Source of the DNA: Bacillota bacterium
Lineage (GTDB): Bacteria; Bacillota; Limnochordia; DTU080
Length of the DNA stretch: 45,705 bases
Direction of reading: 5' to 3'
Assembly (NCBI GenBank): GCA_012840225.1
Contig: DULU01000020.1
Span: forward strand, 1 to 45,705
The position numbers and the translations under genes were made by a program. Below, one piece after another: positions 3,325 through 37,166 of this stretch. The notes below the pieces were generated by a model. That model was not told where the DNA came from. It worked only from the letters and a program-made list of their open reading frames with translations, and ran no database searches. The first letter of the stretch is position 1; each line of letters begins with the position of its first letter.

Positions 3325-3352
3325 GCTTATTTCATCCTCCAACCGAAACCAG

Positions 3353-3378
3353 AATAGTTGCATCTAATAGTTGCATCT
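3353..3378. repeat. Perfect 13-bp tandem duplication
   Basis: AATAGTTGCATCT occurs twice head to tail (3353-3365, 3366-3378) between the two transketolase subunit genes. The duplication supplies an extra in-frame ATG upstream of the C-terminal subunit gene, with no ribosome-binding site. It is probably replication slippage and is recent, since the copies are identical. Confidence 0.85.
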
Positions 3379-3401
3379 ACATGGATTTTTCCACATCGGG
3401 A

Positions 3402-4223: not shown

Positions 4224-4268
4224 GAATGATAAGCACTCCTTGTCACTGGCTCGCAAGCATGGTAACAC

Positions 4269-4372: not shown

Positions 4373-5275
4373 TTAGTGGTGGTCACCATCCTGGGGCAGC
4401 TGCCGGAGAATGTATTCCTTCGAGCGGAGCAGTGCGGCTACTATGGTATCCCAGGGTAAGGGAGGCGAGGGTGGATAGGCTCTTTTTTGCCTGTCGAATT
4501 CCATCCCCAAGGGCATTTCTACCGTGAGAAGATCAGGCAGCCCGGTTATGGCCAGATGCTGGAAGACAGCCTCATAGTCAACCTCTCCTTCCCCGATAGG
4601 CATGCTGCGCAAACGGTCCCGCACGATGGAGGTATCCTTGATGTGCAGGTTGACCAGGGCTGGGAACAACGGCTGCAGGCGAGGTAGCGGCTGAATGGCG
4701 CCGAAGGAAGCATTGAAAACGTTTCCGCAATCAAAGTTGACGGCCACCGGACTGCCTTTCATCGTTGCCAACAGATCGCTATAGACTTCCGGTGCGGGAA
4801 GGTAGTTGCCGGGATTTTCCAGGCCAATGACCAAGCCCAAATCGCCGGCCAAACCGGCCAGATGCTGTAAATTGGTCATAAAAGCAATCCAATCCGCCGG
4901 CGGACTAATATTGGTGATGACGATGCGGCAACCCAAATCCCGGGCAAATTGCATTCGCTTGGCGAAGCGAACCGTGGCGCCGGGAGAAGCCAGATCCATG
5001 TGCGCGGCGAAGGCTACCGTCTCAAGTCCGCATCTCTCCAGCAAGGAGCGGATCGCCTCCGCTTGCGCCGGGTGCATATCGCTGTCTGTTAAGTGCTCCA
5101 CGTATTTATCGATTGCCGCCAACTCCACATAACGATAGCCGGCAGCAGCCACACCCTGCACAGCTTCCTCCAGGCTATAGCCGATAAAAGCAAGGGTACC
5201 GGCCGCCAGCTTGACGGATGTGGCCGGGCGGTGGGTTCGGTTAACCGGCAAGGCAGTCATGGCTTGGCTTTTCAT
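4373..5275 (-). CDS. Sugar phosphate isomerase/epimerase (xylose isomerase-like TIM barrel)
   Basis: This 300-residue protein shows the AP-endonuclease-2/xylose-isomerase-like barrel: SLEEAVQGVAAAGYRYVEL near the N-terminus, AFAAHMDLASPG, GLVIGLENPGN (metal-ligand glutamate), VAVNFDCGNV, ALVNLHIKDTS (ligand histidine), GEGEVDYEAVFQHL and LLTVEMPL. These strand-end Glu, Asp and His residues bind the divalent metal. It likely isomerises or epimerises a keto- or aldo-sugar in the cytoplasm; the substrate cannot be told from sequence. The ATG overlaps the stop of the upstream cupin gene (ATGA), so the two are translationally coupled. It is the last gene of the serine hydrolase-DUF4185-cupin-isomerase operon, before the terminator at 4269-4294. 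Family certain, substrate open. Confidence 0.85.
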   Translation of the reverse strand: MKSQAMTALPVNRTHRPATSVKLAAGTLAFIGYSLEEAVQGVAAAGYRYVELAAIDKYVEHLTDSDMHPAQAEAIRSLLERCGLETVAFAAHMDLASPGATVRFAKRMQFARDLGCRIVITNISPPADWIAFMTNLQHLAGLAGDLGLVIGLENPGNYLPAPEVYSDLLATMKGSPVAVNFDCGNVFNASFGAIQPLPRLQPLFPALVNLHIKDTSIVRDRLRSMPIGEGEVDYEAVFQHLAITGLPDLLTVEMPLGMEFDRQKRAYPPSPPLPWDTIVAALLRSKEYILRQLPQDGDHH

Positions 5276-5703
5276 GCTTCCCCACCTTTGGGAGTGACGC
5301 CGGCGGCACCGGCTTTTGCCACAGCAGCGGCAGCATCCAGGCAGCGTTTGTAGTTTTCCTCCGCCGTATAGCCCGGTACAAATACAGTGACGAAGGTCAT
5401 GTCGTTATCAGCCGTGTTGATCATCTGGTGCATTTCCTCTTTGAGCACCCAATAGACATAGTTGGGAGCGATCGGGTATTCCTTTCCCTCCACCTTCATT
5501 ACCCCCGCGCCGGATAAGATGAAGATCAGCTCAGGGCGATCGTGCTTGTGATAATCCGTTTGGCTCCTGGCATGCAAGACCACATGGCTGAAGGTGAGCT
5601 CTTTTACATCATTTTTATCCGGAGCCAGCAAAACCTTGATGGTGCGGTGAAATGGAGCACCGATGGTGACGCCTTTTTCCTCATTGGTGTGAACGATTAC
5701 CAT
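5272..5703 (-). CDS. Cupin-domain protein
   Basis: This 143-residue single-domain cupin has motif 1 DYHKHDRPELIFILSGAG (residues about 50-67, metal ligands H-x-H and the Glu) and a second motif ending EEMHQMINTADND. No signal peptide is present. Small cupins in sugar clusters act as sugar isomerases, mutarotase-like enzymes or ligand sensors; here nothing decides among them. The gene starts 2 bases after the DUF4185-type gene, using a Shine-Dalgarno (AGGAGAAGAG) inside that gene's last codons. It overlaps the isomerase downstream by 4 bases, so it is made stoichiometrically with both. The second cupin gene at 9111-9491 is a distant relative, not a recent duplicate. Confidence 0.8.
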   Translation of the reverse strand: MVIVHTNEEKGVTIGAPFHRTIKVLLAPDKNDVKELTFSHVVLHARSQTDYHKHDRPELIFILSGAGVMKVEGKEYPIAPNYVYWVLKEEMHQMINTADNDMTFVTVFVPGYTAEENYKRCLDAAAAVAKAGAAGVTPKGGEA

Positions 5704-5705
5704 GT

Positions 5706-6683
5706 TTACTCTTCTCCTGTCAATATAAATTTAGCTTGACGCACGCAGAAATTATCCCAGGAGGATGAGACCAGGTAGCAGGTTTTACCGTCCGCGCTCA
5801 TCCACTTGGTGGGGAAAGAATTGGTCTCACCCGGGGGCATATCCCATTCCTCCACGCTCCATACTTCCGTCCAGGGTCCCCATGGCTCGGGAGCGTCATA
5901 AATGGCTAAACCTCCCTTGAAACGGGCATCCTCCCCCGGTAGCATCCTTGTCTGGCACCATAAATAGCGCCCCAACCCTTGGTTATATGAGACCGTCGAG
6001 CGATAGCACCTGCCTGGTAAAGTAAAGACAGGGCCATGCTCGGCGAAGTCCTTGGTCCAGACCGGCCGGCCGTCCTCAGCCAACCGGACAAAAAACTCGT
6101 AGGCCTCCCTATCGGCTATGCTCTGTTTGGGCACCCTGGCCAGGATCATACCGTCGGCAGCATCATAGGCAGTCTCCTGGTCGGGCGAATAAATATAGAC
6201 ATAATTATCACGGGCACCGGCATAGTTAGGACCATAATTCAAAAAGGTGGGACAGCCGAAACTCTGGGTAAACTTCCAGTTCGCCCAGGTCCAGGTGCGG
6301 CTGTGGTCGGTGGACCAGGCCAGGATGGAGTTCGCCATATTGCGCACCAGTATATACAATATCCCATCGACCATCAGCATGCCGCTTGGCTTCCCTCCGC
6401 GAGGCCCATGGCCTACAGTCTCGCCGCTGGCGGAGCGGATATTCACGCCTTTGATATCCGGCGGCGACCCTTCCACCCGGGCAAATCCCATGCTCAACTT
6501 GATATCGATGATCGGATCAAAGCCGCGGCCGTCGCCGTAGGCCGTGTATAAGTGCCCGTCGTCGGCCCAGGTATTCACCCAGATATCGCTGCCGTCTTTT
6601 CCGGTACCTCTGGCCAGGCGGATCACTTCATCCAAAGGCGCCCATTCGATCTTCTTGATTACCGGGCTGGGTGCGTAATCCAA
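5706..6683 (-). CDS. DUF4185-like beta-propeller protein, paralogue 1
   Basis: This 325-residue protein has repeated Trp/Gly/Asp-rich strands typical of a five-bladed propeller. Marker motifs are NTWADDGHLYTAYGDGRGF (about residues 37-55), SFGCPTFLNYGPNYAGARD, YVYIYSPD, a PEPWGPWTEV strand near the C-terminus and FPTKWMSADG. The same motifs recur in the proteins at 15397-16581 and 16611-17684. I assign them to the DUF4185 group by pattern, not by a search; some members of that family are endo-D-arabinanases (CAZy GH183). No signal peptide is visible, which is unusual for an endo-acting polysaccharidase and suggests oligosaccharide cleavage in the cytoplasm. The start is TTG 6683, with GAGGAG about 9 bases upstream, inside the end of the serine hydrolase gene (25-base overlap). 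Confidence 0.65.
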   Translation of the reverse strand: MDYAPSPVIKKIEWAPLDEVIRLARGTGKDGSDIWVNTWADDGHLYTAYGDGRGFDPIIDIKLSMGFARVEGSPPDIKGVNIRSASGETVGHGPRGGKPSGMLMVDGILYILVRNMANSILAWSTDHSRTWTWANWKFTQSFGCPTFLNYGPNYAGARDNYVYIYSPDQETAYDAADGMILARVPKQSIADREAYEFFVRLAEDGRPVWTKDFAEHGPVFTLPGRCYRSTVSYNQGLGRYLWCQTRMLPGEDARFKGGLAIYDAPEPWGPWTEVWSVEEWDMPPGETNSFPTKWMSADGKTCYLVSSSWDNFCVRQAKFILTGEE

Positions 6684-7738
6684 GAACGGTTCTCCTCTCT
6701 CCCTACCGCCGCAATAAGCGGGGCGAACAGCTTCTCCCTCAAGTCAAAACCGTCGTCACGACCATTGCGCACCAGGATCAGATCCAGGCTGGGAACCACG
6801 AACAGCACCTGTCTGCCGGCACCGAGGCCATAAAAGGCATCCCGCGGCACCTCCGGCCAGCGCCCGTCGCTGTTGCCGTACCAGCACAGGGCGTATTTTG
6901 GATCGGCGGGAAGAACGCTGCCGGCAAGCATCTGCTCAACCACTTCACTTGATATAATCGTTTGCCCTTCCCAGTCTCCTTTGCGCAGCATCAGCCGTCC
7001 AACAGCAGCTATGGCCCGGGCGGTGTAGGCACCGCCGCCCCAGTTGGCCACGAGCGGCAGGCCGTGGAGATAAAACGTTTTCCCATAGCCGACCGACCAT
7101 TCCTCAGGTGGAACCCCGATCTTGTCCATGATGCGCTGTTTCAGGAGGGTGCGTATATCCTGGCAATCATGGCCGGCCTTGCGCAGGCTGGCGGTAACCG
7201 TATAGGCCAGGACAGCCATGCCCGGATTGCTGTATAAATGAGCGGTGCCGGGAGTGAAGAGCACCGGTACTTCATTCAGCGAAATGGAGAAGGGATCGGG
7301 CTCCTGGCGCCAGAAGGCTCCTTTCCATCCCGGCAACTCGGCGTGAGGTAAATCATCCTGTTCAGCATCGTCCAGTCCGGAGGAATGCGTCGCCAGATGC
7401 CTGATGGTGATCTGAGATTTGAGCGGATCATCCTGCCAGGAAGGGATGAAGGCGGCCGCCCGGTCGTCCGGTGCGATGAGACCGTCATCCATCGCCAGGG
7501 CGAGGGACAGGCCGCCGACCATAGCTTTGGCCAGCGAAGCCGTATAATTCTTGACCTGCCTGCCGTGGTCGGGAGCATACCATTCCCATACGATACGGTC
7601 ATGCCTGGCCACCAAAAGGGCTTTGGTTAAGTGGCGCGCCATTTCCTCCTGCCAGGCAGCCAAGCGGGCGGCGTTCATGCCGACTTCGTCCGGAGCAGCA
7701 TTTTTCCAGCTAAAGGTGGCATTTTGTTCATCCCCCAA
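6659..7738 (-). CDS. Serine hydrolase, beta-lactamase/penicillin-binding fold (family S12-like), 1
   Basis: This protein of 359 residues has the class C beta-lactamase/esterase signature: nucleophile motif SLAK at 68-71 (NYTASLAKAM), the tyrosine motif YSN at 169-171, HLATHSSGLDD (114-124), and a final glycine-rich strand. Such proteins are esterases, amidases or transacylases as often as lactamases. With no signal peptide and neighbours that act on sugars, an esterase removing acyl groups from imported oligosaccharides is a reasonable guess. The start is TTG 7738 with GGAGG 7 bases upstream. It is the first gene of the four-gene operon running to 4373. An identical 14-bp operator at 7790-7803 and 9045-9058 places it under the LacI protein encoded just upstream. 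A paralogue lies at 9494-10531. Confidence 0.82.
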   Translation of the reverse strand: MGDEQNATFSWKNAAPDEVGMNAARLAAWQEEMARHLTKALLVARHDRIVWEWYAPDHGRQVKNYTASLAKAMVGGLSLALAMDDGLIAPDDRAAAFIPSWQDDPLKSQITIRHLATHSSGLDDAEQDDLPHAELPGWKGAFWRQEPDPFSISLNEVPVLFTPGTAHLYSNPGMAVLAYTVTASLRKAGHDCQDIRTLLKQRIMDKIGVPPEEWSVGYGKTFYLHGLPLVANWGGGAYTARAIAAVGRLMLRKGDWEGQTIISSEVVEQMLAGSVLPADPKYALCWYGNSDGRWPEVPRDAFYGLGAGRQVLFVVPSLDLILVRNGRDDGFDLREKLFAPLIAAVGREENRSWITHPAR

Positions 7739-7757
7739 GGGAACCCCTCCATTTGCC

Positions 7758-7786
7758 GAGTCAGTCGGTTTTGCTGAGTCAGTCGG
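7758..7786. repeat. Direct repeat in operon promoter region
   Basis: GAGTCAGTCGG occurs at 7758-7768 and again at 7776-7786 (18-base period), just beside the operator at 7790-7803 and upstream of the serine hydrolase start. It may be an activator site or a slippage duplication. Confidence 0.55.
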
Positions 7787-7789
7787 CAG

Positions 7790-7803
7790 TGTAAACCATT
7801 ACA
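7790..7803. promoter_or_regulatory. LacI-type operator
   Basis: TGTAAACCATTACA has TGTAA/TTACA arms around a 4-base centre. Its exact reverse complement lies at 9045-9058, on the other side of the LacI gene. It sits 52 bases before the serine hydrolase start codon. Confidence 0.65.
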
Positions 7804-7865
7804 TTTACAACCAATAACTTCGGGCTGCCGGCACCAAATCCTCTACCTTATATCCTATTTTCCCT

Positions 7866-8939
7866 TCAGTTTATAGACCTCAACTTTAGCGGCTGCCGAC
7901 GCGGCGGCCCCACCGAAGCTCTCTCTATCAACCGGCAAGGCAGCCTGGTTATGCTCGACAGTTTTTCCAAACCGGAATCCCACATGTCTGCGGGTAAATC
8001 GATCAGCTCCAGCAATTTATCCGCGGCCAGCCGGCCCATCTGTTCCGCAGGCTGGGAGATGACGGTCAATGGCGGTGTTAAAAGGGCTGTCCATTCGTGA
8101 TCGTCATATCCGACCACCGATAATTCCTCAGGTATCTTGATACCCAACTTTTGCAGGCCCCTCATCATATCAAGGGTGGTGTAAAAACCGCCGGCTATCA
8201 AAGCAGTGGGTGGATTTGCGCCCTCTAATACCCGCCTCACCTCGACCTCGGTCATACGCTTTTCAGTCTCAATGGTCTGAAAAGCGTCGGCATCATAAGG
8301 TAAGCCCCGTCTCGCCAAGGCCTCTTTGAAGGCTTCCAACCGTTCCCTACCGGTAGAATAACCAACCACATTGCATAGAAAACCAATCCGCTTATGGCCA
8401 CGACTTGCCAGATAATCTACAATCGTTTCCATTGCCTGGCGGTGATCGGCCAGTATCACCGGTCCTTCCACATCAACCGGCCACCGGTTAACGAAGACGC
8501 GGGGAATGCGGCTGTTGCGCCATATATCCAGATGGCGCCCTTTTTCCTGGGCTACCGAGATGATAAAACCGTCCACCTTGCGTTGCATCAGAAGATGAAT
8601 TTGCTGGGCCTCTATCAGGGGATCTTTTTGCGTATTGCACAAGATGACATGATAACCTTTCTCTCTCAGCATCTTCTCGACGCTGTGTACCACGGAGGTG
8701 AGGAATAGGTTGGCGCTGTCGGCTACCAAAATGCCGACGACGGAAGTCTGCCGGCGCCGGAGCGAGGCTGCCAACATGTTGGGTCTGTAGTTAAGCAACC
8801 GGGCGCACTCCAGCACCCGGCGGGCCGTGTCTTCTTTCACCCGGCTTGAGCCGTTTAGGACGCGGGACACTGTGGCGGTGGATACTCCCGCAAGTTGGGC
8901 TACATGCTCTATAGTTGGGCTGGATTGCCCTTTGGCCAT
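7866..8939 (-). CDS. LacI-family transcriptional regulator 1
   Basis: The N-terminus carries the canonical LacI helix-turn-helix and hinge (TIEHVAQLAGVSTATVSRVL, then NYRPNMLAASLRRRQT). It is followed by a periplasmic-binding-protein-like sensor domain with VVGILVADSANLF, DGFIISVAQE, ALIAGGFYTTLDMM and VVGYDDHEWTALLTPPLTVI. I start at ATG 8939 (357 residues), since AGGAGG lies 13 bases upstream and the helix-turn-helix follows normally; the frame extends to 8972. The protein should repress until a sugar ligand binds. Identical dyads at 7790-7803 and 9045-9058 flank the gene: one before the downstream four-gene operon, one before the divergent cupin gene and its own start. It therefore probably controls both directions and itself. 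Confidence 0.92.
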   Translation of the reverse strand: MAKGQSSPTIEHVAQLAGVSTATVSRVLNGSSRVKEDTARRVLECARLLNYRPNMLAASLRRRQTSVVGILVADSANLFLTSVVHSVEKMLREKGYHVILCNTQKDPLIEAQQIHLLMQRKVDGFIISVAQEKGRHLDIWRNSRIPRVFVNRWPVDVEGPVILADHRQAMETIVDYLASRGHKRIGFLCNVVGYSTGRERLEAFKEALARRGLPYDADAFQTIETEKRMTEVEVRRVLEGANPPTALIAGGFYTTLDMMRGLQKLGIKIPEELSVVGYDDHEWTALLTPPLTVISQPAEQMGRLAADKLLELIDLPADMWDSGLEKLSSITRLPCRLIERASVGPPRRQPLKLRSIN

Positions 8940-9044
8940 AACTACCCCCATCCCTCCTGGACTATTCCTCAAGGTTATTCTTCAGGTCTATTTCTCAATT
9001 TAAATATGGCTTCCTGCTTCTGGCAGGATATGGCCGACACAAAG

Positions 9045-9058
9045 TGTAATGGTTTACA
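9045..9058. promoter_or_regulatory. LacI-type operator (second copy)
   Basis: TGTAATGGTTTACA is the exact reverse complement of the operator at 7790-7803. It lies between the divergent LacI gene (start 8939) and the cupin gene (start 9111), so one bound repressor could silence both. Confidence 0.65.
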
Positions 9059-9110
9059 ATCCCGGATTGGTTCTATCGGGCTACAATTGATTCCATGGGA
9101 GGTAACCGGT

Positions 9111-9491
9111 TTGAAGTATTTTATAAGCGTTGATGATGTAACCGCTGTAATAAAATCGCACGGACGTCGTTCGCGCCTGCTTCTGACCGAAGAGGAACTG
9201 GAAGCGAGAGGATTTGCTCTTGGTGAACACACCATGGCACCAGGCGGCAGAGCCCCTGCCCACACCCATGAAGTGGAACAGGAAGCCATGTATTTTTTTG
9301 CCGGCGAAGGTGAAGGGCGGGTTGGGGAGGAACGCTATGCACTGCACCCGGGTGTTTTGATGTTTGCCCCGGCCGGTGTTGAGCATGAAATAATCAATAC
9401 AGGTAGCGAGCCGTTGCGGTTTGTGTGGGTGTATTGCCCGCCCCTCCCCTCTCATGTTAGCCAGAAGGCTTATCATGAGGCGAATAAATAA
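9111..9491 (+). CDS. Cupin-domain protein 2
   Basis: This 126-residue cupin shows ALGEHTMAPGGRAPAHTHEVEQE (metal-binding H-x-H-x3-5-E; motif 1 at about residues 40-62), then MYFFAGEGEGRVG and motif 2 PAGVEHEIINTGSEPLRFVWVY. I start at TTG 9111, because GGGAGG lies 9 bases upstream and the family's first strand begins there; an open frame to 8895 crosses the operator and the LacI start. It is divergent from the LacI gene with the shared operator between them, and its 3' end is only 2 bases from the convergent serine hydrolase gene. It is likely a small sugar-binding or isomerising cupin in the cytoplasm; the reaction is unknown. Confidence 0.82.
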   Translation: MKYFISVDDVTAVIKSHGRRSRLLLTEEELEARGFALGEHTMAPGGRAPAHTHEVEQEAMYFFAGEGEGRVGEERYALHPGVLMFAPAGVEHEIINTGSEPLRFVWVYCPPLPSHVSQKAYHEANK

Positions 9492-9493
9492 AG

Positions 9494-10531
9494 CTATCGG
9501 CATGACCTGCAGATTGGTGCCAGGAACGGGGAGAGCACCTCGTAAATAGAACCCCAATCATCGCTTTGCCAACCTTTCTCTCCGGCCCGAGCGACGACCA
9601 GGTCCAAACTGGGAACGACCACAATCAAACTCTCTTTAAGACCCCAAGACCAGTAGGCGTCTTTGGGCACATCGGTTATAGCACCATCGCCGTTGTTCCA
9701 CCACAACAAGCCGTAGTGTTGCGATGCCTTTTCAAAGCGGTGACTATTATCTCCCCTCACCGGCAGCTCCGAGATACCTGCTGCCGGCTTGCCGACTAAA
9801 GAGACGAAGTCCGGGGAAACAATCTGTCGGCCGGCATAATTTCCGGACCGCAGGTAGAGATAACCTATCCTGGCCATAGCCTCTACATTGGCAAAAATAC
9901 CTGCCCCCATAGGTCTCCGGTTGATGCCGTCCAACAGCGGCCCTCTGTCAAGTCTGTTGAAACCCCACCATAGATCTTCAGAACCGGAACGCTCATGGCC
10001 AACGGTGATGCCCAGCGGTTGGAAAACCCGCTCCGTCATCAAGGTTAACAGGTCCATTCCATACACTTTCGTCAAGCAGTCGGCCAACCAGTTGGCACCA
10101 CCGTCGCTATAAAGCCAACCCGTGCCGGGGCGAAATTGCAGAGCGCACCAACCCCGTGTTTTCTCAAATCCGGCTGTATGCGTTGCCAGATGAAACAAAG
10201 TGATCTCATCCAACCATCCGGTAGCGGCATTCTCCTCAGGAGGAATGCCGCCGTTGGGCAGATGGTCGACCATCCTGTCGCTTAACTTAACCTTCCCATC
10301 ATCGATGGCCAATCCCAGGGCGGTTACACCTATCGATTTGGTGGTTGAATAAAGATCATATTTTTGCTTTTGATCACCCCAGCTCATGACCATCCGCCCA
10401 TGCCGTATAATACAGCCGGAGCCTCCCGCCTTTTCGGCGTAGGCTACGGCGGCATTTAGCTCTTCGCTGTTCATCCCCCGTCTTTCCGGGATATCGGGTA
10501 TAAATGGGCAATCGGGATTTATCTTTATCAC
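9494..10531 (-). CDS. Serine hydrolase, beta-lactamase fold, 2
   Basis: This 345-residue protein has the S12-type nucleophile motif STTK (62-65) within DLYSTTKSIGVTALGLAIDDGK, FHLATHTAGF (113-122), and YSD (141-143) where the family usually has Y-x-N. The final strand region WSWGLKESLIVVVPSLDLVVAR matches that of the paralogue at 6659-7738 (GLGAGRQVLFVVPSLDLILVR). No export signal is visible. The start is GTG 10531, 3 bases after the stop of the upstream binding-protein gene, so the two are co-transcribed. A Tyr-Ser-Asp motif is known in some esterase or amidase branches, so activity is plausible but shifted from beta-lactamases. It likely hydrolyses an ester or amide on the ligand of the adjacent binding protein. 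Confidence 0.8.
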   Translation of the reverse strand: MIKINPDCPFIPDIPERRGMNSEELNAAVAYAEKAGGSGCIIRHGRMVMSWGDQKQKYDLYSTTKSIGVTALGLAIDDGKVKLSDRMVDHLPNGGIPPEENAATGWLDEITLFHLATHTAGFEKTRGWCALQFRPGTGWLYSDGGANWLADCLTKVYGMDLLTLMTERVFQPLGITVGHERSGSEDLWWGFNRLDRGPLLDGINRRPMGAGIFANVEAMARIGYLYLRSGNYAGRQIVSPDFVSLVGKPAAGISELPVRGDNSHRFEKASQHYGLLWWNNGDGAITDVPKDAYWSWGLKESLIVVVPSLDLVVARAGEKGWQSDDWGSIYEVLSPFLAPICRSCR

Positions 10532-10534
10532 ACC

Positions 10535-11860
10535 CTACTTCTGAGACTTTTCCCTGAGGTAGTTATTCACGATTTCGGTGATGCTCTCCAATACCGTCCT
10601 AGGTGCTTGCTGATTTTGCCAAATGGGGTTGAGCTGGATGAGGCTATTGATATCTCTTTGATCGGGAGACAGGAGACGTACCCTGTTTCCATTATTTGGC
10701 AGCATGGTCAATTCCATAAGCAAATCCGGGTTCACCAGATTGGACGGATAAACGCGATAAACGAGAGCCCCGGATCTGGTGGGCAGGCAAGTGTCTTTTA
10801 TTCCCGGTACAATTATTTGTCCTTCCCGACTGGAGATGAAGGCAATGAACTTCCAGGAAGCTTCCGGATGACGAGCATTCTTAGGAATGGCATACCCGGA
10901 GGTAGCAAAGTCGGCAGCATACCTTCCCCCTGAACTCGGGCCCTTGGGATAGGGTGCAATGCCGAAACGAAGGTGCTGCACTCTGCCGAAATCCGAAATG
11001 CCGTTGTCATAACGGACGATCATAGCCGCAGCGCCGTTACTGAAGGCCGAGGTATTGTTTTGGTTTCCGAAATCGGCAGTGGAGACGGCCATAACGCGGT
11101 CGGTATGCATTAAGTTTTGCAGGAACTCAAAAGTGGCCACTGATTCGGGCGCATCGTAAAGGCATTTTGTCGGCGCCATCATGTTATCGAATTCCGCCGC
11201 CCCATTGGTCCACATCCAAATTCTGTGTAATCCCCGTTCAGCGCCTATTACCTGCGGCTTACCATCAGGATCCCGGTGTGTCAACTTCATTGCCGCCTGC
11301 CGGAAATCAGACCATGTCCAACCGCCTTTTTTATATTGGGTGCTAGGATATTCGATTCCGGCATTATCGAACATATCGGCATTGAAGAAATAGATGTTAG
11401 GTCCGGCTCCGTACGGCATGCCCAGAAGTTTGCCGTTATAGGACATGATCTCAAGGGCATAACGATTCATCTCCTCAAAGCGGAAGCCGGGCTGACTTTC
11501 AGCCAGCGGGCGCAGGTCGATGGCTAAATCGTTTTGACCGAAATATTGTACCTCCTGCATATCGAGCATGAATATGTCGGGTGGTGAATCACTGGCCAAC
11601 ATTATTCTTATTTTGCCTGCATAGTCTGAGCTAATCGGCATCTGCTGCACCTTTATACCCGGATTTGCGGCTTCAAACTCAGCTATCAGCTGATCCCAAC
11701 CCTCTTGCTGCGAGGTACCGCTCCAATGCATAAACGTGAGTGTGATTTGTTCAGCTTGCCCTGCCATAGTCGTCATTGTCAACAAAAAACAAAAACACAA
11801 TACCTGAATCAATTTGCAAGTTGCCGAATTGCCCGGTCGTAATGCCAATCGCCTTGCCAT
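10535..11860 (-). CDS. ABC sugar-binding protein (family 1)
   Basis: This 441-residue protein has a Sec signal peptide (hydrophobic stretch at about residues 17-35, cleavage near AGQA-EQ) without a lipobox. It is followed by the family-1 solute-binding fold: LTFMHWSGTSQQEGWDQLIAEFEAANPGIKV in pieces from about residue 40, SPPDIFMLDMQEVQYF, YNGKLLGMPYGAGPN, NADMFDNAGIEYP, WTWSDFRQAAMKLT, then a C-terminal lobe ending TVLESITEIVNNYL. A good Shine-Dalgarno (AAAGGTGG) precedes the ATG. It would bind an oligosaccharide outside the membrane, but no permease genes follow; the next gene is a serine hydrolase. It is divergent from the AraC-type regulator at 12108, which is the likely controller. Confidence 0.9.
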   Translation of the reverse strand: MARRLALRPGNSATCKLIQVLCFCFLLTMTTMAGQAEQITLTFMHWSGTSQQEGWDQLIAEFEAANPGIKVQQMPISSDYAGKIRIMLASDSPPDIFMLDMQEVQYFGQNDLAIDLRPLAESQPGFRFEEMNRYALEIMSYNGKLLGMPYGAGPNIYFFNADMFDNAGIEYPSTQYKKGGWTWSDFRQAAMKLTHRDPDGKPQVIGAERGLHRIWMWTNGAAEFDNMMAPTKCLYDAPESVATFEFLQNLMHTDRVMAVSTADFGNQNNTSAFSNGAAAMIVRYDNGISDFGRVQHLRFGIAPYPKGPSSGGRYAADFATSGYAIPKNARHPEASWKFIAFISSREGQIIVPGIKDTCLPTRSGALVYRVYPSNLVNPDLLMELTMLPNNGNRVRLLSPDQRDINSLIQLNPIWQNQQAPRTVLESITEIVNNYLREKSQK

Positions 11861-12107
11861 TGAACAGCCACCTTTCTATAAATCTTCTTATACCTAACTG
11901 TGGTTATCTTTAATAATAAACAAAAACCTAATCAGCAGCTTGACTGTGGCTATCATATCTTTGACCCTCAGTAACACCTGACACCGGATCAGGCAGAAAG
12001 TCTATGTAAAGGTTTTCTCGTGCATGTCTATTTAAAAAGGAAAGCTATTCCTATCAACGAACTAGTTAATATGTCTACTTTATTTATGGCGGAAATGAGG
12101 TAGATCA
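11861..12107. other. Divergent intergenic region (binding protein / AraC)
   Basis: These 247 AT-rich bases separate the two divergent genes and must hold both promoters. On the minus strand TATAAG lies close to the binding-protein start. I could not pick out convincing AraC half-sites or a complete -35/-10 pair. Confidence 0.5.
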
Positions 12108-12998
12108 ATGAAATGGTTACCGCGTTGGGAGGGTAATCTGTGCCTGGAGATACAGGAGCAAGCCGTCAGCTGCGTACATGCAGTTTTTGAAAATGTTGTC
12201 GGTATGCCTCATTACCACCGTGGTCTGGAAATCCTTTACTGCCTATCGGGTAACGGCACTTTTTATTTCGGCAATCAATCTATTCCATACAATGCACCGG
12301 CTCTGTTGTTCTTCAATGGTTTAATACCGCATACTGCCCATATGGAAGGGCGTTATGAAAGGTGGAATATCTGGATCGAAACGTCCTCGTTTGAACAAGC
12401 GGTGCAAAGCAACATGCCGCCGCTCGCCAAACAGCTGATCACAGTTTCCGAAATTGCTGTCGGTACGGTACCGGCTGAACTTACGAATATTCTGTCGTCG
12501 ACCTGCGAAAGTGTTGCCTATGAGCTCAAGAACCGCTCCCCCTTTTACGAGGAAATCGTTTACTATCAACTTCTCACCATAATGCTGATCGCCGAAAGAT
12601 TAGTCGATATCCAGCACAAACGGCACAACAGCTTAGGCATGGAAGGCCCTCTAAACAAATCAAGAACCCTCGAACAGCTCTACTTGTTCAACTATATTGA
12701 TGCTAATCTAGCCGACGATCTTTCCGCCAAAGCCCTGGCCGATAAGTTCCACTACTCAGAGCAACATATCTATCGCACCATCAAGAAAGCTACCGGGAAA
12801 ACTTTGGGCGATTACATAAAACACCGGCGCATCGAAAGGGCCAAAGCTCTCTTACAAACCACCAATATGTCTATCACCAGCATCGCCGATATTGTGGGTA
12901 TTGCGGATATAACACAATTCAGCCGCACCTTTAGATCTATTGTCGGTTGTGCCCCAAGTCAATACCGCCGCTTGTTTGCCGACGCAGTGGTTTCATAG
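12108..12998 (+). CDS. AraC-family transcriptional regulator
   Basis: This 296-residue protein starts with a cupin-like arm (VGMPHYHRGLEILYCLSGNGTFYF in pieces, about residues 31-54, then GLIPHTAHMEGRYERWNIW). It ends with a double helix-turn-helix domain from about residue 195: LADDLSAKALADKFHYSEQHIYR, YIKHRRIERAKALL, MSITSIADIVGIADITQFSR, and the conserved final APSQYRR. Such proteins bind a sugar in the cupin and activate divergent or downstream transport and hydrolase genes. The weak Shine-Dalgarno GAGGTAG precedes the ATG. It is divergent from the binding-protein/serine-hydrolase pair and is followed 29 bases later by the fused esterase gene, so it may control both sides. Confidence 0.92.
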   Translation: MKWLPRWEGNLCLEIQEQAVSCVHAVFENVVGMPHYHRGLEILYCLSGNGTFYFGNQSIPYNAPALLFFNGLIPHTAHMEGRYERWNIWIETSSFEQAVQSNMPPLAKQLITVSEIAVGTVPAELTNILSSTCESVAYELKNRSPFYEEIVYYQLLTIMLIAERLVDIQHKRHNSLGMEGPLNKSRTLEQLYLFNYIDANLADDLSAKALADKFHYSEQHIYRTIKKATGKTLGDYIKHRRIERAKALLQTTNMSITSIADIVGIADITQFSRTFRSIVGCAPSQYRRLFADAVVS

Positions 12999-13027
12999 TT
13001 GTAAACGGCGAAAGGATGATTCCGGCC

Positions 13028-15400
13028 ATGAAAACCGATTCCGTATCCACCACATCCACATCCATAAATAAGCGAAAAGCATTTCTGGAGCATCTATTGA
13101 AGGTCTACTACTCGGACATGGATGCCAAACCTCGTTCTATACCCCACTGGCGCAAGTGGCTCAGAGAGACGGGTAATCTGCCTCCCGACTTTGACGAGAT
13201 GCCAACCTCTGCTTTTCCCCCGGATCTCCTCACCTTTCAAAACGGTGAAAGGGTGGACAAGGCCGCCCTCTGGGAAAAGCGCAAGGAAGAAATCCTCCAT
13301 ATACTGCGAGAAATAAACATTGGTGAATGGCCGGCGCCGCCGGATGAGGTGGCCGTCACCTTTAGAGAGGGGCGGGACGAAGAAGAAAACTATTACATAT
13401 ATTATGCGCAGATCCTCTTTTCTCCCGACGCCAAAGCTTTTGCCTATGCCAAAAAAACACCGTACGGCCGATTTGACTCCAGCCGCCGGGATGCCGCCGT
13501 GTTGCGGGTCAGGCTTTTAGTGCCCAAAGGAAGCGGCCCATTTCCGGCCTTCGTCAACTGCCACACAGGCTATCATGAACCGTGTATATGGGATCGTTTC
13601 GCCACCCGGGGCTATGTAGTCGGGCACTTTAGTCAAGATGATGCCGAAAAAGCAGCCCAGGTGTTCATAGATGCCCGCTGTAATCAGCTGGAATGGTGGG
13701 CTTTTGCCGCCGGACGGGTGCTCGACATGTTACACACCCTCCCCTATGTTGATGGCACGAAAATTGCCGTGGGAGGCCATTCCCGCGGGGGCAAGACCGC
13801 AGTTTTGGCCGGTATAATGAACCCCGGCTTCACTGCCGTGATCTCCAGTCATCCCGGCACCGGGTCGGGTAGTTTTTGTTTGTGGCGCTATGCCGGGGAG
13901 AAATTCGGCGCCGAAACCATTGAGGTGAGCTCCCGGCTATTTCCCTATTGGAACGATCCCCGCATGCGCTTTTTCAGTGGTCGGGAGAATAAGCTGCCTT
14001 TCGACGGGCATTTCCTGGCTGCTTTGCTTGCGCCGAGGCCTCTATTGATGGCCACCGGGGAACATGACATGGTGGGCGAACCGTGGGGCGATCAGCAATC
14101 ATATTTAGCTGTCCGGGCTGTCTACAGCCTGCTCGGCTGCGAGGACAGAATCGGTTTTCATGCCTCAAGCGGCGGACATGCTCTTGATCCTGCCATCATG
14201 GACGATTACATCCGGTGGACCGATATGCAGTTTGGGCGAGCGCCCAAAAGCGACCGCTTTAATAAATTGATCTACACCTATTCTTTCGATGCCTGGAAGT
14301 CACTGGCGGGTAACGAATTGAACATCTCCCAATTCCCGGAAAAGAGTATGGACGATATCCTGCACCGGCCAGGTGGGGGCATCATCGACAGCACAGAAGA
14401 TTGGGAGAGGAAAACTCACCTGATAAAGGAAAACATATGCCGGATCATCGGGGAATTGCCGCCCTATGTGCCGGTGGGCACCGCCTCACCCGCTGGCGCC
14501 TCGAAAGCCTCACCCAGTGCCGCCACTCCTGTCCTCACCCTCGAACCTCTACCCCGCTCACCTCACGGTTTTGAGACAGCACAGTTGCCCCTCCAAGGCA
14601 GCCTGAAAGCGCATATCACCTTCCCCAATCCCCAGGAGCGCCGCCTCCAAACCCAAATGCCGGTGGTGATATATTGCCATGCCTATTTGCACGCCACGGG
14701 TTATCACTGGTCCAGGGCTTATGGATGGGATATTTCAGTGGGCGAGATGATAGCCCGTCAGGGCATGGTAGCCGTCGGTTTCGACATGATCGGTTACGGC
14801 AGCCGAAACCGCGAGGCAGGAATAGAGTTCTTCCAAAAAAATCCTCAAACATCCATCCTCGGCGTCATGATCCAGGATGTCCGCCGCTTGGTCGATGCCC
14901 TTTCCCAACTGGATTTTATCGATCCCAGTCGCATGGCCGTCGCCGGATTCTCCCTGGGAGGCATGGTGGCTTTATATGCCGCGGCCTTCGACTCACGCAT
15001 AAAAGCAGTGGCTTCCACCTGCGGCTTCGCCTCGATGCGCCGGGATGTACACGGAAAGGTAACCGAAGGGTTGCGGCGCTACTCGCACTTGCATCCGACC
15101 ATACCGCGCCTCGGGCTGTTCATCGGCGAAGAAGCGAGAATCCCCTACGATTTTCACGAGATATTAGCCTTGATCGCTCCCCGTCCGCTCTTTATCCTCG
15201 CTCCCCGACTGGATCAGGATTTCCTGCTGGAAGATGTAGTGATCTGCGTGGAGGAAGCCAAAAAGGTTTACAGATTATATACGGCGGAAGAACGCCTCGT
15301 CTTGGCCACCCCCGACGATTTCAATAGATATTCGCTGGAATATCAGGAACAAGTGAATCTTTTCCTGCGCAAAGCTCTGGAAGAAGGGGATGAAGAATGA
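13028..15400 (+). CDS. Double alpha/beta-hydrolase: CE15-like esterase fused to a second esterase
   Basis: Two complete alpha/beta-hydrolase domains are joined in 790 residues. The first (about 90-410) has GGHSRGGKTA with nucleophile Ser252, resembling the G-C-S-R-x-G-K element of CE15 glucuronoyl esterases. It also has FDGHFLAALLAPRPLLMATGEHD and the His384 motif (SGGHALDP). The second (about 510-790) has VVIYCHAYLHATGYHW, GFDMIGYGSRNR, nucleophile Ser642 in AGFSLGGMVALYA, and APRPLFILAPRLDQDF. Its histidine is not obvious; TPDDFNRYS stands where a catalytic histidine is usual. No signal peptide is present. I start at ATG 13028 (GGA-type site 12 bases upstream); the open frame extends to 12947. 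Linked domains would strip two different ester types from the same imported oligosaccharide. The stop overlaps the next start (ATGA). Confidence 0.8.
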   Translation: MKTDSVSTTSTSINKRKAFLEHLLKVYYSDMDAKPRSIPHWRKWLRETGNLPPDFDEMPTSAFPPDLLTFQNGERVDKAALWEKRKEEILHILREINIGEWPAPPDEVAVTFREGRDEEENYYIYYAQILFSPDAKAFAYAKKTPYGRFDSSRRDAAVLRVRLLVPKGSGPFPAFVNCHTGYHEPCIWDRFATRGYVVGHFSQDDAEKAAQVFIDARCNQLEWWAFAAGRVLDMLHTLPYVDGTKIAVGGHSRGGKTAVLAGIMNPGFTAVISSHPGTGSGSFCLWRYAGEKFGAETIEVSSRLFPYWNDPRMRFFSGRENKLPFDGHFLAALLAPRPLLMATGEHDMVGEPWGDQQSYLAVRAVYSLLGCEDRIGFHASSGGHALDPAIMDDYIRWTDMQFGRAPKSDRFNKLIYTYSFDAWKSLAGNELNISQFPEKSMDDILHRPGGGIIDSTEDWERKTHLIKENICRIIGELPPYVPVGTASPAGASKASPSAATPVLTLEPLPRSPHGFETAQLPLQGSLKAHITFPNPQERRLQTQMPVVIYCHAYLHATGYHWSRAYGWDISVGEMIARQGMVAVGFDMIGYGSRNREAGIEFFQKNPQTSILGVMIQDVRRLVDALSQLDFIDPSRMAVAGFSLGGMVALYAAAFDSRIKAVASTCGFASMRRDVHGKVTEGLRRYSHLHPTIPRLGLFIGEEARIPYDFHEILALIAPRPLFILAPRLDQDFLLEDVVICVEEAKKVYRLYTAEERLVLATPDDFNRYSLEYQEQVNLFLRKALEEGDEE

Positions 15401-16581
15401 AAATGAGGGAAAATGGCTCACTCTCGCCATACCCGCCGAGCCCTTTGATTAAAAAGGTCGCATTCAGCCCTCCCCTTGTGCTCGATAGAGGCAACGGCGA
15501 TCAATGGTCCACCACCTGGGCCGACGACGACAATTTATATACTGCCTGGGGCGACGGCACAGGCTTCGGCTATGAAGTAGTGCGAATGCATGCCGATCGT
15601 GTTTTCCTCGGTTTGGCCCGTATTGACGGCACCCCCCCGCATTACCAAGCCGCCAACATATGGGGTGGATTTAAGCCGGAAAGCTCCACCCCCGCGCTAT
15701 ATGTGCACCAGGAACCTAAAACGGAAAACCTTAAACCCGGCCAGGGCTTAGTCTTTGCCAACGGCAAAATGTACCTTTTGGCCTTGGTTCATGGCCTCGA
15801 TAACAGGCGCAACCGCTTGTTAAGCTCGACCGATTACGGGAAAACCTGGCAGGATCATGGCTTTTTATTCGACCATGAACCGTATTACCGCTTTGCCGAA
15901 TCGTATATCATTCAGTTTGGCCGAAACTACTCCGGTGTGCCCGATCACTTGGCCGGGTATGTATATCTTTATTCGCTGTCCAAAAGCGACTGGGTATATT
16001 ATCAGGAAAACGGCAGACCGCAGAGCAAATCCACCAGATGGGACAATCCCTTGGTCACCAATCAGGATTTGGTTTTGGCTCGTGTGCCGCTGGATAAAAT
16101 TGAGCAGAGGAGTGCTTATGAGTTCTACTGCGGAAGCGGTGGCGGCAACGGCAATGGCTACACCGGGCCGGCGTGGAGCAAGGACATAAACGCTGCCACC
16201 TCCGTATTCCACGATCCAAATGGAGCCAACTGGCATCCATATTGCGTCTATAACCCCTGGCTGAAAAGGTTCATCTTAGTGGTTAAAAACACCTATAATC
16301 CCTATCCGCTGGAGAGGAATTATTTCAACTGCGACAGCGCCGGCTTAGGTATGTATGAAGCAGAAAATCCCTGGGGTCCCTGGCATACGTTTTTCTATAC
16401 CAGGCACATCGGCCGCTTTATCCCGGGATTGGATCTGGGTATCAGCTTTACCATTCCCCAAAAATGGATGGAAAACGACGGCCGCACCTGGTGGATGATT
16501 TTTGCCGGCCGGGGAACTTACGAAGGCAAAAGCATGTACGGCTTCAATCTGGTGAAGCTGGATCTGGAGTTAAGTTTATAA
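15397..16581 (+). CDS. DUF4185-like beta-propeller protein, paralogue 2
   Basis: This 394-residue protein is the longest of the three paralogues. It shows STTWADDDNLYTAWGDGTGF (about residues 37-56) and the paired strand motifs LLSSTDYGKTWQDHGF, IQFGRNYSGVPD, YVYLYSLSKSDW, AENPWGPWHTFFYTRHIG, and the terminal IPQKWMENDGRTWWMIFAGRG. The extra length relative to paralogue 1 is an insertion around residues 85-115 and a glycine-rich loop SGGGNGNGYTGPAW. No signal peptide is visible. It overlaps the fused esterase gene by 4 bases and is followed 29 bases later by paralogue 3, so esterase and two propeller proteins are made together. Glycoside hydrolase activity is likely by family, but the substrate is not known. 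Confidence 0.65.
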   Translation: MKMRENGSLSPYPPSPLIKKVAFSPPLVLDRGNGDQWSTTWADDDNLYTAWGDGTGFGYEVVRMHADRVFLGLARIDGTPPHYQAANIWGGFKPESSTPALYVHQEPKTENLKPGQGLVFANGKMYLLALVHGLDNRRNRLLSSTDYGKTWQDHGFLFDHEPYYRFAESYIIQFGRNYSGVPDHLAGYVYLYSLSKSDWVYYQENGRPQSKSTRWDNPLVTNQDLVLARVPLDKIEQRSAYEFYCGSGGGNGNGYTGPAWSKDINAATSVFHDPNGANWHPYCVYNPWLKRFILVVKNTYNPYPLERNYFNCDSAGLGMYEAENPWGPWHTFFYTRHIGRFIPGLDLGISFTIPQKWMENDGRTWWMIFAGRGTYEGKSMYGFNLVKLDLELSL

Positions 16582-16610
16582 AAGAGAAAAATGGAAGGGT
16601 GGCCTGGCAG

Positions 16611-17684
16611 ATGGCTGAAAAGGTTTTCAATGCCCGGGAAGAAGCGATCAGAATGGGCTTGGATATGGAATGCCCGGAACCTCCATACCCGGCTAGCACC
16701 CTGATAGCCCGCATGGATTGGGACGAAGAACCGGTGAGGATCGGGTTTGACGGTGTCGGCGACAACTGGCCCACCACCTGGGGCGATGATGATATCAACT
16801 ATACCACCTACGGCGACGGCCGCGGCTTCGGCGGGGAGAAACTGCCCCGGGAATCCTCCCTGAGCCTGGGATTTGCCCGTGTCCACGGCCACCCACCGCA
16901 CCATTGGGGAGAAGATCTAAAGACCGACGCCGATGTGCCGGTGGGTTGGGGAGAAAACGGCATCAAATCCAGCGGCTTGTTGATGGTGGACAGCGTGCTC
17001 TATTTATTCGTGCGCAACTACAAGGTGGAAGGAGACTGGCGCCACTCTCGCCTGGCCTGGTCTATAGATAAGGGAAAAACCTGGAAGTGGGCGGATTGGT
17101 ATTTCAGTGACTCCTTCGGCTGCCCGGATTTCGTCCAATGCGGCAAAAACTACGACCAAGCCAAAGATGAGTATGTTTACATAGTTTCACAAGACAGCAA
17201 CTCGGCATATGATTACACCCGCCATCTGGTGATGGCCCGCGTCCCCATCACTGCTATCACCGACCGCCGGCGTTATGAGTTTTTTGCCGGCACCGATAGC
17301 GCCGGCAATCCAATCTGGACGCCGGAAATAGCGGACCGTAAGCCAATTTTTACCGATGGCCGCGGTGTTTTTCGGGTCGGCATCACCTATAATCCACCCC
17401 TAAAGCGCTTTTTCTTAGCCACCTCGCACTGGGTGGCCGACTGGCCGGGTCCGCGCAAACACACCTCCGCCTTGGGTGTCTTTGAAGCCTCCAATCCTTG
17501 GGGTCCCTGGGCGACAGTTTATTACGATGACTGGTGGTTGGGCGATAAAACCTGTTTCCATCATAAATTTCCTGCCAAATATATCAGCGCCGACGGTCTG
17601 GAAATGTGGTGCCTCTTCTCGGGACAAGGGGGCAACTATACCTATACTCTGCGCAGAGCTTCTTTGGTAGTGAGTAGGCACTGA
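16611..17684 (+). CDS. DUF4185-like beta-propeller protein, paralogue 3
   Basis: This 357-residue protein has PTTWGDDDINYTTYGDGRGF (about residues 51-70), SLSLGFARVHGHPPHHWG, KSSGLLMVDSVLYLFVRN, LAWSIDKGKTWKWADW, SFGCPDFVQCGKNYDQAKDE, YVYIVSQDSNSAYD, SNPWGPWATVYYDDWW, and FPAKYISADGLEMWCLFSGQ. It is closer to paralogue 1 (SGMLMVDGILYILVRN; SFGCPTFLNYGPNYAGARDN) than to paralogue 2, so the tandem neighbours 2 and 3 are not simple duplicates of each other. I start at ATG 16611, with AAGGGTGG 8 bases upstream; the open frame extends back into paralogue 2. The motifs are shared with DUF4185-type proteins; a cytoplasmic location is inferred from the missing signal peptide. Confidence 0.65.
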   Translation: MAEKVFNAREEAIRMGLDMECPEPPYPASTLIARMDWDEEPVRIGFDGVGDNWPTTWGDDDINYTTYGDGRGFGGEKLPRESSLSLGFARVHGHPPHHWGEDLKTDADVPVGWGENGIKSSGLLMVDSVLYLFVRNYKVEGDWRHSRLAWSIDKGKTWKWADWYFSDSFGCPDFVQCGKNYDQAKDEYVYIVSQDSNSAYDYTRHLVMARVPITAITDRRRYEFFAGTDSAGNPIWTPEIADRKPIFTDGRGVFRVGITYNPPLKRFFLATSHWVADWPGPRKHTSALGVFEASNPWGPWATVYYDDWWLGDKTCFHHKFPAKYISADGLEMWCLFSGQGGNYTYTLRRASLVVSRH

Positions 17685-18172
17685 CGGCGTAATCCCGGGA
17701 AGAATGGCCATCCGGACGGGGCCCGTGAAATGTTTGATTATTTATTTCCCTTGATCGATGATATTTTTTGTTTTACATTTAAGGAGTGACCCGCAAATAA
17801 TTGCCAAGGGTAAACAAATAAAAGCATATAGACCGGAAGCTTCATAGCAGCAAAGGCTCTAACTCACCTACCAGAGATACCGGCTCACCAACCTTGCCCA
17901 TAGCATGCACCATGGCTATATGGCGGGTCTTTCTAGTCTGCCGGGTATGTGTCCAGGCATCCATATTGACCATCCCGCCGGTGGGGAGGTGAAGAGGCAA
18001 CAGGCAACCGGCAAAACGATTGTGAAGTGGTAATGACCATCGAGTCATTGTGGACACCGAGTCGGAGTCGTATCGAGCCACATCCAAATGTCTGAAACAA
18101 TCAAATGTCAGAAAACTGCGGAAAGATAGAGATTCGCTAAAGATTGAAGATAGCAAAGAGAGGGGTTTGCTG
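17685..18172. other. 488-base intergenic region with possible decayed coding segment
   Basis: No intact gene is present. On the minus strand the bases 18010-17842 read as a protein-like segment (LPTGGMVNMDAWTHTRQTRK, ..MVHAMGKVGEPVSLVGELEPL) that I do not recognise. It has no plausible start or Shine-Dalgarno and may be the end of a decayed gene. At 18085-18097 and 18102-18114 an imperfect direct repeat (CAAATGTC.GAAA, 12 of 13) precedes the binding-protein gene and might be a regulator site. Confidence 0.4.
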
Positions 18173-19450
18173 ATGAAACGCATGTCTCGTATGCCGGTTT
18201 TACCAGCCATTTTATTGGTGTTGTTGCTGATGGCGCTTTTCTCCTTCCCGGGCATGGCGGCAGAGAAGACCAAGTTGGTGTGGGGGCTATATACCAACAT
18301 CCCTGAGCGCGTGACCGTCTGGGAAGGCTGGGCGAAGAAGTTCGAGGCTTTGCATCCCAATGTGGAAGTGGAAATACTTGGCGCGGCTTCAGGCTGGTAT
18401 GATAAGTTGCTCGTCTGGATTGCCGGCGGGGTGGCACCTGATGTGGCTTGGATGGGCATGAATATGTATGTCAGCTTCACCGACCTGCTCTTGCCGCTCA
18501 ATCATTTGATAGATAAAGATCCGGCGATTAAGAGCATCCTTCCCCAGGCTCATATCAACATGACCTGGGAAGGACAGATCCTGGGCCTCACCTACGGGCT
18601 GAACACACACACGGTTTTTTACAACAAGGATATGTTCAACGAAGCCGGCCTGGCTTACCCGAAAGATGACTGGACCTGGGACGATGCCATGAATATGGCC
18701 AAACAATTCACCAAAGATACCAACGGCGACGGCGTCCCGGACCGCTGGGGTCTCAATGTTTACTGGCCATACACGGCCTGGAACTATGGCGGCGATGTCT
18801 TCAGTCCCGACGGCAGGACGATCTTGATCAACCGGCCCGCCACCATAAAAACCATGCAGCTATTTGCCGATCTAAACAACGGCAAAGCGGGTGTGCAGCC
18901 CCCGGCCTCCCTCAATCTGGGCGATTCCAAAGCTCAGGTGGCCAACGGGATTACCGCCATGGCCCCCCGCGGCGTATTTGACATCACCTACTTCCAAAAC
19001 AGCAGCAAATTCGATTGGGATGTGGTAGGCATGCCGGCCACGGTGGTGGACGGGCAAAGGTATCGGGCCACCTTCTTCAGCCCGGAAGCCTGGTGCATCC
19101 CGCGTGACGCCAAGAATCCCGATCTGGCGGCCGAGTTTATCAGATTTATATTGCAGCCTGAACAGACGGCCGAGTTTGCCGCTATAGGGGCCATTATTCC
19201 CTCGCAACCGCAGGTGGCGGCGGATGTTTTCTACAAAATTGACCCGTCGAAAAACCTCATGGCTTTCCTGCGGGCGTTGGATTACACCGCGCAGCAATAC
19301 TGGGCCCACCCGGCCTACAATCAGCTGGGCTTGACCAGCGGTCAATACTTCACCGACATGCTGAACGGGGCCATGGCAGCGCAGTTTGCCATACCTGAAA
19401 TCGCCAGGCAGGCCAATGAGATATTAAAACAATTTTATGCCGGCAAATAA
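18173..19450 (+). CDS. ABC sugar-binding protein (family 1)
   Basis: This 425-residue protein begins with a Sec signal (MKRMSRMPVLPAILLVLLL, cleavage near GMAA-EK) and no lipobox. The mature part has LVWGLYTNIPERVTVWEGWAKKFEALHP in pieces, VAPDVAWMGMNMYV, WEGQILGLTYGLNTHTVFYN, NEAGLAYPKDDWTWDDAMN, and a predicted calcium loop DTNGDGVPDRWG (about residues 182-193) typical of family-1 binding proteins. The start is ATG 18173 with GAGAGGGG upstream; an open frame to 18050 lacks a site. It should capture an oligosaccharide in the periplasm. It is followed 73 bases later by a creatininase-like gene, not by permeases. Confidence 0.9.
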   Translation: MKRMSRMPVLPAILLVLLLMALFSFPGMAAEKTKLVWGLYTNIPERVTVWEGWAKKFEALHPNVEVEILGAASGWYDKLLVWIAGGVAPDVAWMGMNMYVSFTDLLLPLNHLIDKDPAIKSILPQAHINMTWEGQILGLTYGLNTHTVFYNKDMFNEAGLAYPKDDWTWDDAMNMAKQFTKDTNGDGVPDRWGLNVYWPYTAWNYGGDVFSPDGRTILINRPATIKTMQLFADLNNGKAGVQPPASLNLGDSKAQVANGITAMAPRGVFDITYFQNSSKFDWDVVGMPATVVDGQRYRATFFSPEAWCIPRDAKNPDLAAEFIRFILQPEQTAEFAAIGAIIPSQPQVAADVFYKIDPSKNLMAFLRALDYTAQQYWAHPAYNQLGLTSGQYFTDMLNGAMAAQFAIPEIARQANEILKQFYAGK

Positions 19451-23651: not shown

Positions 23652-23791
23652 TACAAAAATCTAGGAGGTGCGCCATTTATCGATAACAATAGGCGGTAAC
23701 ATTGTGTTGTGTATGGGGTATGCATCAAAGTAGGAGTCGAGCTGTCGGTTAAGTTCTTTGTACGGATTAATCTCCAAAAGGGGTGGTTTAC

Positions 23792-25101: not shown

Positions 25102-25165
25102 TTCTACACTCTCTGCACGCTTTTCCGCACTGTTTAATGAAAACTTGGAAAGTAAGGTGATCGTA

Positions 25166-29717: not shown

Positions 29718-29751
29718 TTGCGACAACCAATCCAGGAGGATGCAATACATC

Positions 29752-35703: not shown

Positions 35704-35791
35704 CAATCATTCCTCCCCGCTCGCTGTTCATTTGTCCACATACTACACGATGATCATACACTTGATCTGCCTGCTTTGTCAATAAAATACC

Positions 35792-37129: not shown

Positions 37130-37166
37130 TGGTCGCCTCCTCCACACTTTAAATCACAATATTCTG

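Follow-up and report, generated by a model that had tools for sequence, protein, structure and literature searches.

Split propeller and PF00144 hydrolase genes in a Bacillota genome and their fused counterparts in other bacteria

We found that a Bacillota genome encodes divergent DUF4185/GH183-like propeller proteins and PF00144 serine hydrolases as separate genes without leaders, and that in most of the P1-like relatives found in other phyla the two are joined in one polypeptide; the parts of the fusion thus occur split and leaderless in a phylum almost devoid of them. The window, i.e., the whole stretch of DNA analyzed, comprises 45,705 nt of contig DULU01000020.1 (GCA_012840225.1, positions 1 to 45,705, forward strand). 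We propose, with a probability of about 0.6, that the propellers are retaining furanosidases that act along with de-esterification in the cytoplasm, on imported oligosaccharides bearing ester groups.

Organization of the locus and predicted cellular location

The initial annotation had described three propeller genes sharing two motifs, and all of these open reading frames and motifs were recovered. P1 (5706-6683, minus strand, 325 aa) contains TWADDGHLYTAYGDG and EPWGPW, P2 (15397-16581, plus strand, 394 aa, with D35 and D53) contains TWADDDNLYTAWGDG and NPWGPW, and P3 (16611-17684, plus strand, 357 aa) contains TWGDDDINYTTYGDG and NPWGPW. A fourth paralogue, P4, 84% identical to P1, was found in the same genome at positions 25015-25893 of contig C18. 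The three window proteins resemble each other well above chance level, and P3 was indeed closer to P1 (E=1.7e-66, 42% identity) than to its tandem neighbor P2 (E=9.7e-34, 37% identity), as had been claimed.

On the minus strand, the gene of BL, a PF00144 serine hydrolase similar to family VIII esterases (6659-7738, 359 aa, with S68, K71 and Y169), overlaps P1 by 25 nt; after a gap of 2 nt P1 is followed by a cupin-domain gene (5272-5703, PF07883, sugar isomerase-like or ligand binding), and this overlaps by 4 nt the gene of an AP_endonuc_2 TIM-barrel protein (4373-5275, PF01261, sugar epimerase/isomerase-like). Downstream of this operon, a transketolase is encoded as two genes (2350-4268, minus strand), with the C-terminal part at 2350-3363 and the N-terminal part at 3402-4268. 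The same strand carries genes for a LacI-type regulator (7866-8972), a second PF00144 serine hydrolase, BL2 (9494-10531), both assigned with Pfam, and an ABC solute-binding protein with a signal peptide, identified by Pfam and hydropathy (10535-11860). The plus strand encodes an AraC-type regulator (12108-12998) and an 817-aa esterase without signal peptide, made of a GCE_fung glucuronoyl-esterase-like domain and an AXE1/alpha-beta hydrolase domain (12947-15400); its gene overlaps P2 by 4 nt, P3 begins 29 nt after P2, and downstream of P3 there is another ABC solute-binding protein gene (18050-19450), in which an internal ATG gives a signal peptide.

The P1 start codon is TTG, preceded by a GGAGA-type ribosome site located within the end of the BL gene. 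The order LacI regulator, BL, propeller, and AP_endonuc_2 is present twice in the genome, and the second cassette lies on contig C18 (L187, 13618-18547). In this copy, the hydrolase ends earlier than in the window, and the propeller has an identical TTG start context. A sequencing frameshift behind the separation of BL and P1 is unlikely, because the second cassette shows the break at the matching place, with a differing intergenic sequence and the same TTG; the split is therefore genuine.

The window contains five solute-binding-protein genes (10535-11860, 18050-19450, 23783-25033, 28869-29717 and 37270-38658), and among the window proteins scanned no recognized ABC permease was encoded beside them. 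There are also GH20, heparinase II/III-like, and sulfatase genes at 20729-23320, 25145-27256 and 29635-31230, all without signal peptides, pointing to nearby functions in the intracellular degradation of a sulfated amino-sugar or uronic-acid glycan. A disaggregatase-related beta-helix protein is encoded at 35855-37147, and Pfam gave zero matches for an 846-aa ORF (33166-35706) and a 473-aa ORF (917-2338).

Export was assessed by crude hydropathy, not SignalP, with each frame extended back to the preceding stop. By this measure, no export signal was found in P1-P4, BL, BL2, the 817-aa esterase, or the GH20, heparinase-like and sulfatase proteins; signals were detected in the solute-binding proteins at 10535, 23783 and 37270. 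P3 has an alternative in-frame ATG upstream, at 16464 within P2, and this longer reading is also devoid of a signal. A cytoplasmic location of the window propellers is thus probable in this genome. The propellers had been described as lacking signal peptides, and this holds for the window copies; it does not extend to the subfamily, where leader-like N-termini occur in the majority of the fused relatives and in those P3 orthologues that were read.

Fold and candidate active site of the propellers

The proposed relationship to DUF4185/GH183 was upheld by Pfam, fold, and profile comparisons, although the PF13810 search by itself gave a mixed outcome: P1 passed with 49.1 bits (cut-off 39.5), P2 remained below it with 28.5 bits, and P3 had no DUF4185 match. 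The same family was matched at E<=0.01 by 38 of 40 relatives, and NCBIfam returned nothing for the propellers. AlphaFold2 models were generated with a pLDDT of 94.9 for P1 and 78.3 for P2, and the best solved match for both was EndoMA1 (Z 28.0, rmsd 2.6, 269 aligned for P1; Z 26.4, rmsd 3.0, 284 aligned for P2). The next families, GH62, GH43, N-acetylgalactosamine deacetylase and BACOVA_04882, followed at Z about 20. This comparison covers P1 and P2, and P3 is about 42% identical to P1. In agreement, a profile of 40 relatives matched four GH183-type sequences with a probability of 99.3 and E 1.7e-20, over the C-terminal two thirds. Sequence searches of solved structures with P1, P2 and the family profile gave weak sialidase Asp-box or chance matches, and EndoMA1 was absent from them, so that the link to GH183 requires fold or profile comparison.

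In EndoMA1, Asp33 is the nucleophile, Asp51 the acid/base, and Glu243 is essential, whereas Arg198 holds sugars at subsites -2/-3 and is braced by Glu243 (PMC10509167). The P1 residues D33 and D51 were invariant in 40/40 aligned sequences (31-64% identity to P1), and their spacing of 18 equals that of EndoMA1. P1 D51 aligned with the EndoMA1 acid/base Asp51 and was invariant in all groups; for D33, MAFFT set the column one position off EndoMA1 Asp33, across a variable turn, and automatic alignment leaves the placement of this column uncertain. We thus regard D33 as the putative nucleophile and D51 as the putative acid/base. The other two residues are replaced: the position of Glu243 is Arg228 in P1/P3-type proteins, His in P2, and His or Asn/Cys in P2-type proteins, and that of Arg198 is unconserved, with T/S/D in its place. 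In DgGH4185b from Dysgonomonas gadei, the same spacing of 18 separates the essential aspartates D170/D188, and the enzyme tolerates losing the glutamate (PMC10115798), so the loss of Glu243 lowers the likelihood of GH183 membership, and does not exclude it. Since an aspartate pair of matching spacing is kept and Glu243 and Arg198 are replaced, the catalytic chemistry has probably been retained in the window clade and substrate recognition altered.

Fused relatives and origin of the genes

Scanning named genomes yielded 377 confirmed relatives, of which 80, with 54-63% identity to P1, were kept; most belong to Planctomycetota and Verrucomicrobiota, and some to Bacteroidota, Acidobacteria, Omnitrophota and others. 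In 70 of 83 P1-like ORFs, the propeller shared a polypeptide with a homologue of the window PF00144 proteins, and several of the other 13 ORFs are truncated by contig ends or have their own leader. The fused hydrolase was of the BL2 type in 49 cases and of the BL type in 20, and one fusion had the reverse order, with the propeller first. Most of the listed BL2-type domains were 52-59% identical to BL2, and the listed examples of BL-type domains joined to P1-like propellers were 46-55% identical to BL; the two window hydrolases are the counterparts of the two fused types. When six fusions representing both orders were analyzed with Pfam, PF00144 was detected in all six and PF13810 in five; for BL and BL2 themselves, PF00144 scored 72.8 and 102.1 bits (cut-off 27). 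The hydrolase residues S68 and K71 (SxxK) and Y169 were retained in 67-69 of 69 sequences, and a signal-like hydrophobic stretch preceded the hydrolase in 58/70 fusions, so that most of the fused relatives are apparently secreted two-domain proteins. In Planctomycetota, the phylum of locus L017, a close P1 relative was present in 10/294 genomes, mostly in fusion-length frames.

The initial annotation had placed the propellers next to esterases; as other bacteria fuse the propeller to PF00144 hydrolases, this link is stronger than originally thought, and we consider the partnership real and well supported. That the halves are split in the window and joined elsewhere suggests that both act together on ester-bearing sugar chains. 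PF00144 is functionally broad, and the hydrolases could conceivably be amidases or peptidases. No conserved operon naming a substrate was found around the fused genes, where the recurring neighbor families were only general ones, and a paper on the DUF4185-PF00144 fusion was not found in the literature searched.

In the tree, P1, P2 and P3 each grouped with, or nearest to, a different subfamily, and the three genes are therefore not local duplicates. Together with P4 and the relatives, they formed a clade split off, with 100/99 support under midpoint rooting, from the group containing EndoMA1. Within this clade, P1 and P4 were nested in branches of other phyla, and P3 joined its own orthologues from such phyla; the latter were 49-57% identical to P3, with signal-peptide-like N-termini in all three that were read. 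A separate protein, L156, has tandem DUF4185-like domains, the first placed near the window clade and the second near GH183.

Of 398 genomes from the phylum, just 3 matched the propeller family at all; one of them is the source of the window, and the other two carry GH183-type proteins. In G351, a genome of the same phylum, the GH183-type protein of locus L155 has two repeated N-terminal domains, and a DUF2961 (GH172)-like gene lies immediately behind it; this pair is a probable D-arabinan locus. Binning contamination was rejected as the source of the window locus, because TypA on the same contig was 64-70% identical to that of the genome's own family and order, versus 43-51% to the Planctomycetota/Verrucomicrobiota-type genomes compared, and the contig is therefore genuine. 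Horizontal acquisition of three subfamilies, together with loss of the leader and splitting of the fusion, is the simplest account, and the reverse direction, with split genes giving rise to the fusion elsewhere, is also conceivable.

Proposed function and comparison with known systems

We infer that P1-P4 would act on a furanosidic glycan and cut it with the retaining mechanism of GH183, with D33 as the Asp nucleophile and D51 as the Asp acid/base, and that the PF00144 serine hydrolases would work in concert with them, taking ester groups off this glycan. Many bacteria would have both activities in one apparently secreted two-domain protein; the window genome probably gained the genes by horizontal transfer, and they are now separate, leaderless, and closely coupled. 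After capture by the solute-binding proteins and import, oligosaccharides would lose their ester groups through the action of BL, BL2 and the 817-aa esterase and would then be cut by P1-P4, the released sugars passing to the epimerase-like enzyme, the cupin, and transketolase. Weighing against this reading, an ABC permease was not recognized in any of the window proteins analyzed. The coupled genes, leaderless enzymes, and signal-bearing solute-binding proteins give the layout expected of such a pathway, and cytoplasmic action on imported, esterified oligosaccharides, as put forward in the initial annotation, is the reading we prefer; this preference concerns the present genome and does not extend to the entire subfamily. 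The odds are about even that the clade is a glycoside hydrolase group outside GH183, with its own furanoside specificity and obligate coupling to ester removal, cytoplasmic and split in the window lineage; we are equally divided on the part of this proposal that extends a bifunctional esterase-glycosidase form across Planctomycetota and Verrucomicrobiota.

The strongest competing explanation, though an unlikely one, is that these are ordinary GH183 endo-D-arabinanases acting on actinobacterial cell-wall D-arabinan, with the esterase stripping succinyl or mycolyl groups. Mycobacterial arabinan is acylated, EndoMA1 and AraH2 are the closest solved relatives by Foldseek, and a single GH172 gene and a single GH116 gene are present in the genome. 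Among named viral models, the nearest was the Gordonia phage GMA6 lysin, in which the DUF4185 domain has endo-D-arabinanase activity (PMC10115798). However, with R198/E243 replaced and a clade separate from GH183, this activity is not to be assumed. We also rejected a D-arabinan locus with GH172/GH116 here, as the single copies of each are on other contigs, and GH172 has no adjacent DUF4185 or esterase partner.

Distinctly less probable is a propeller that has lost catalysis and serves as a carbohydrate-binding or targeting domain, leaving the esterase as the sole enzyme. Such a role would agree with the loss of the third acid and with the second catalytic domain that accompanies most relatives, but both putative catalytic aspartates are invariant in 40/40 sequences as divergent as 31-64% identity to P1, and unfused copies, i.e., the P3 orthologues, occur. 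We give little credence to non-classical export of the window enzymes for extracellular action like that of their apparently exported relatives, since signals absent from them are present in three solute-binding proteins. Least probable of all is another chemistry on the shared fold, e.g., a GH130-like phosphorylase with R228 binding phosphate: the fold search did return GH130-type phosphorylases (Z about 18.7), phosphorolysis fits the cytoplasm, and an Arg replaces Glu in the cleft, but this Z is about 9 under that of EndoMA1, and phosphorolysis makes little sense for the fused relatives, most of which look exported.

For GH183, the literature searched gives one substrate, D-arabinan. The equally spaced aspartate pair, changed subsite, and joined esterase in environmental bacteria point to a natural ester-bearing furanoside glycan, and no description of the breakdown of such a glycan was found in the literature searched. 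The two-domain enzyme is available in the cultured species Chthoniobacter flavus (locus L072, 6876-8930) and Brevifollis gellanilyticus, and a simple genetic prediction follows, namely that esterase and propeller share a substrate.

Compared with GH183 (EndoMA1, 8hhv/8ic1; DgGH4185a/b; AraH2 from M. tuberculosis, 8an0; GMA6 lysin), the window proteins share the predicted five-bladed propeller, an Asp pair 18 apart, and similarity to PF13810, which exceeds the cut-off in P1. Unlike these, the window clade has Arg198/Glu243 replaced, is separate in the tree, and has PF00144 as fusion partner or neighbor; moreover, the window proteins are predicted to be cytoplasmic, and P1-P3 have no CBM domain. 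GH62, GH43, GH130-type and GH117 glycosidases share the overall fold (Z about 18-20), far below EndoMA1, and the acid arrangement of GH43 differs (PMC10509167). With PF00144/family VIII esterases, such as 6-aminohexanoate-dimer hydrolase (1wyb), Lsa45 (8dc1) and Pc15g00720 (6kjc), the window hydrolases share SxxK plus Tyr and the whole domain, but they score only about 30 bits against any solved member and are linked to a glycosidase-type propeller. The D-arabinan loci of Microbacterium arabinogalactanolyticum and Dysgonomonas gadei contain several divergent DUF4185 paralogues each, as the window does, and in Microbacterium GH183 is encoded near an ABC importer and an SBP_bac_8-type solute-binding protein, further likenesses to the window. 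In these loci, exported GH183 enzymes are encoded along with GH172 and GH116, whereas in the window the propellers are accompanied by esterases, and GH172/GH116 are located elsewhere.
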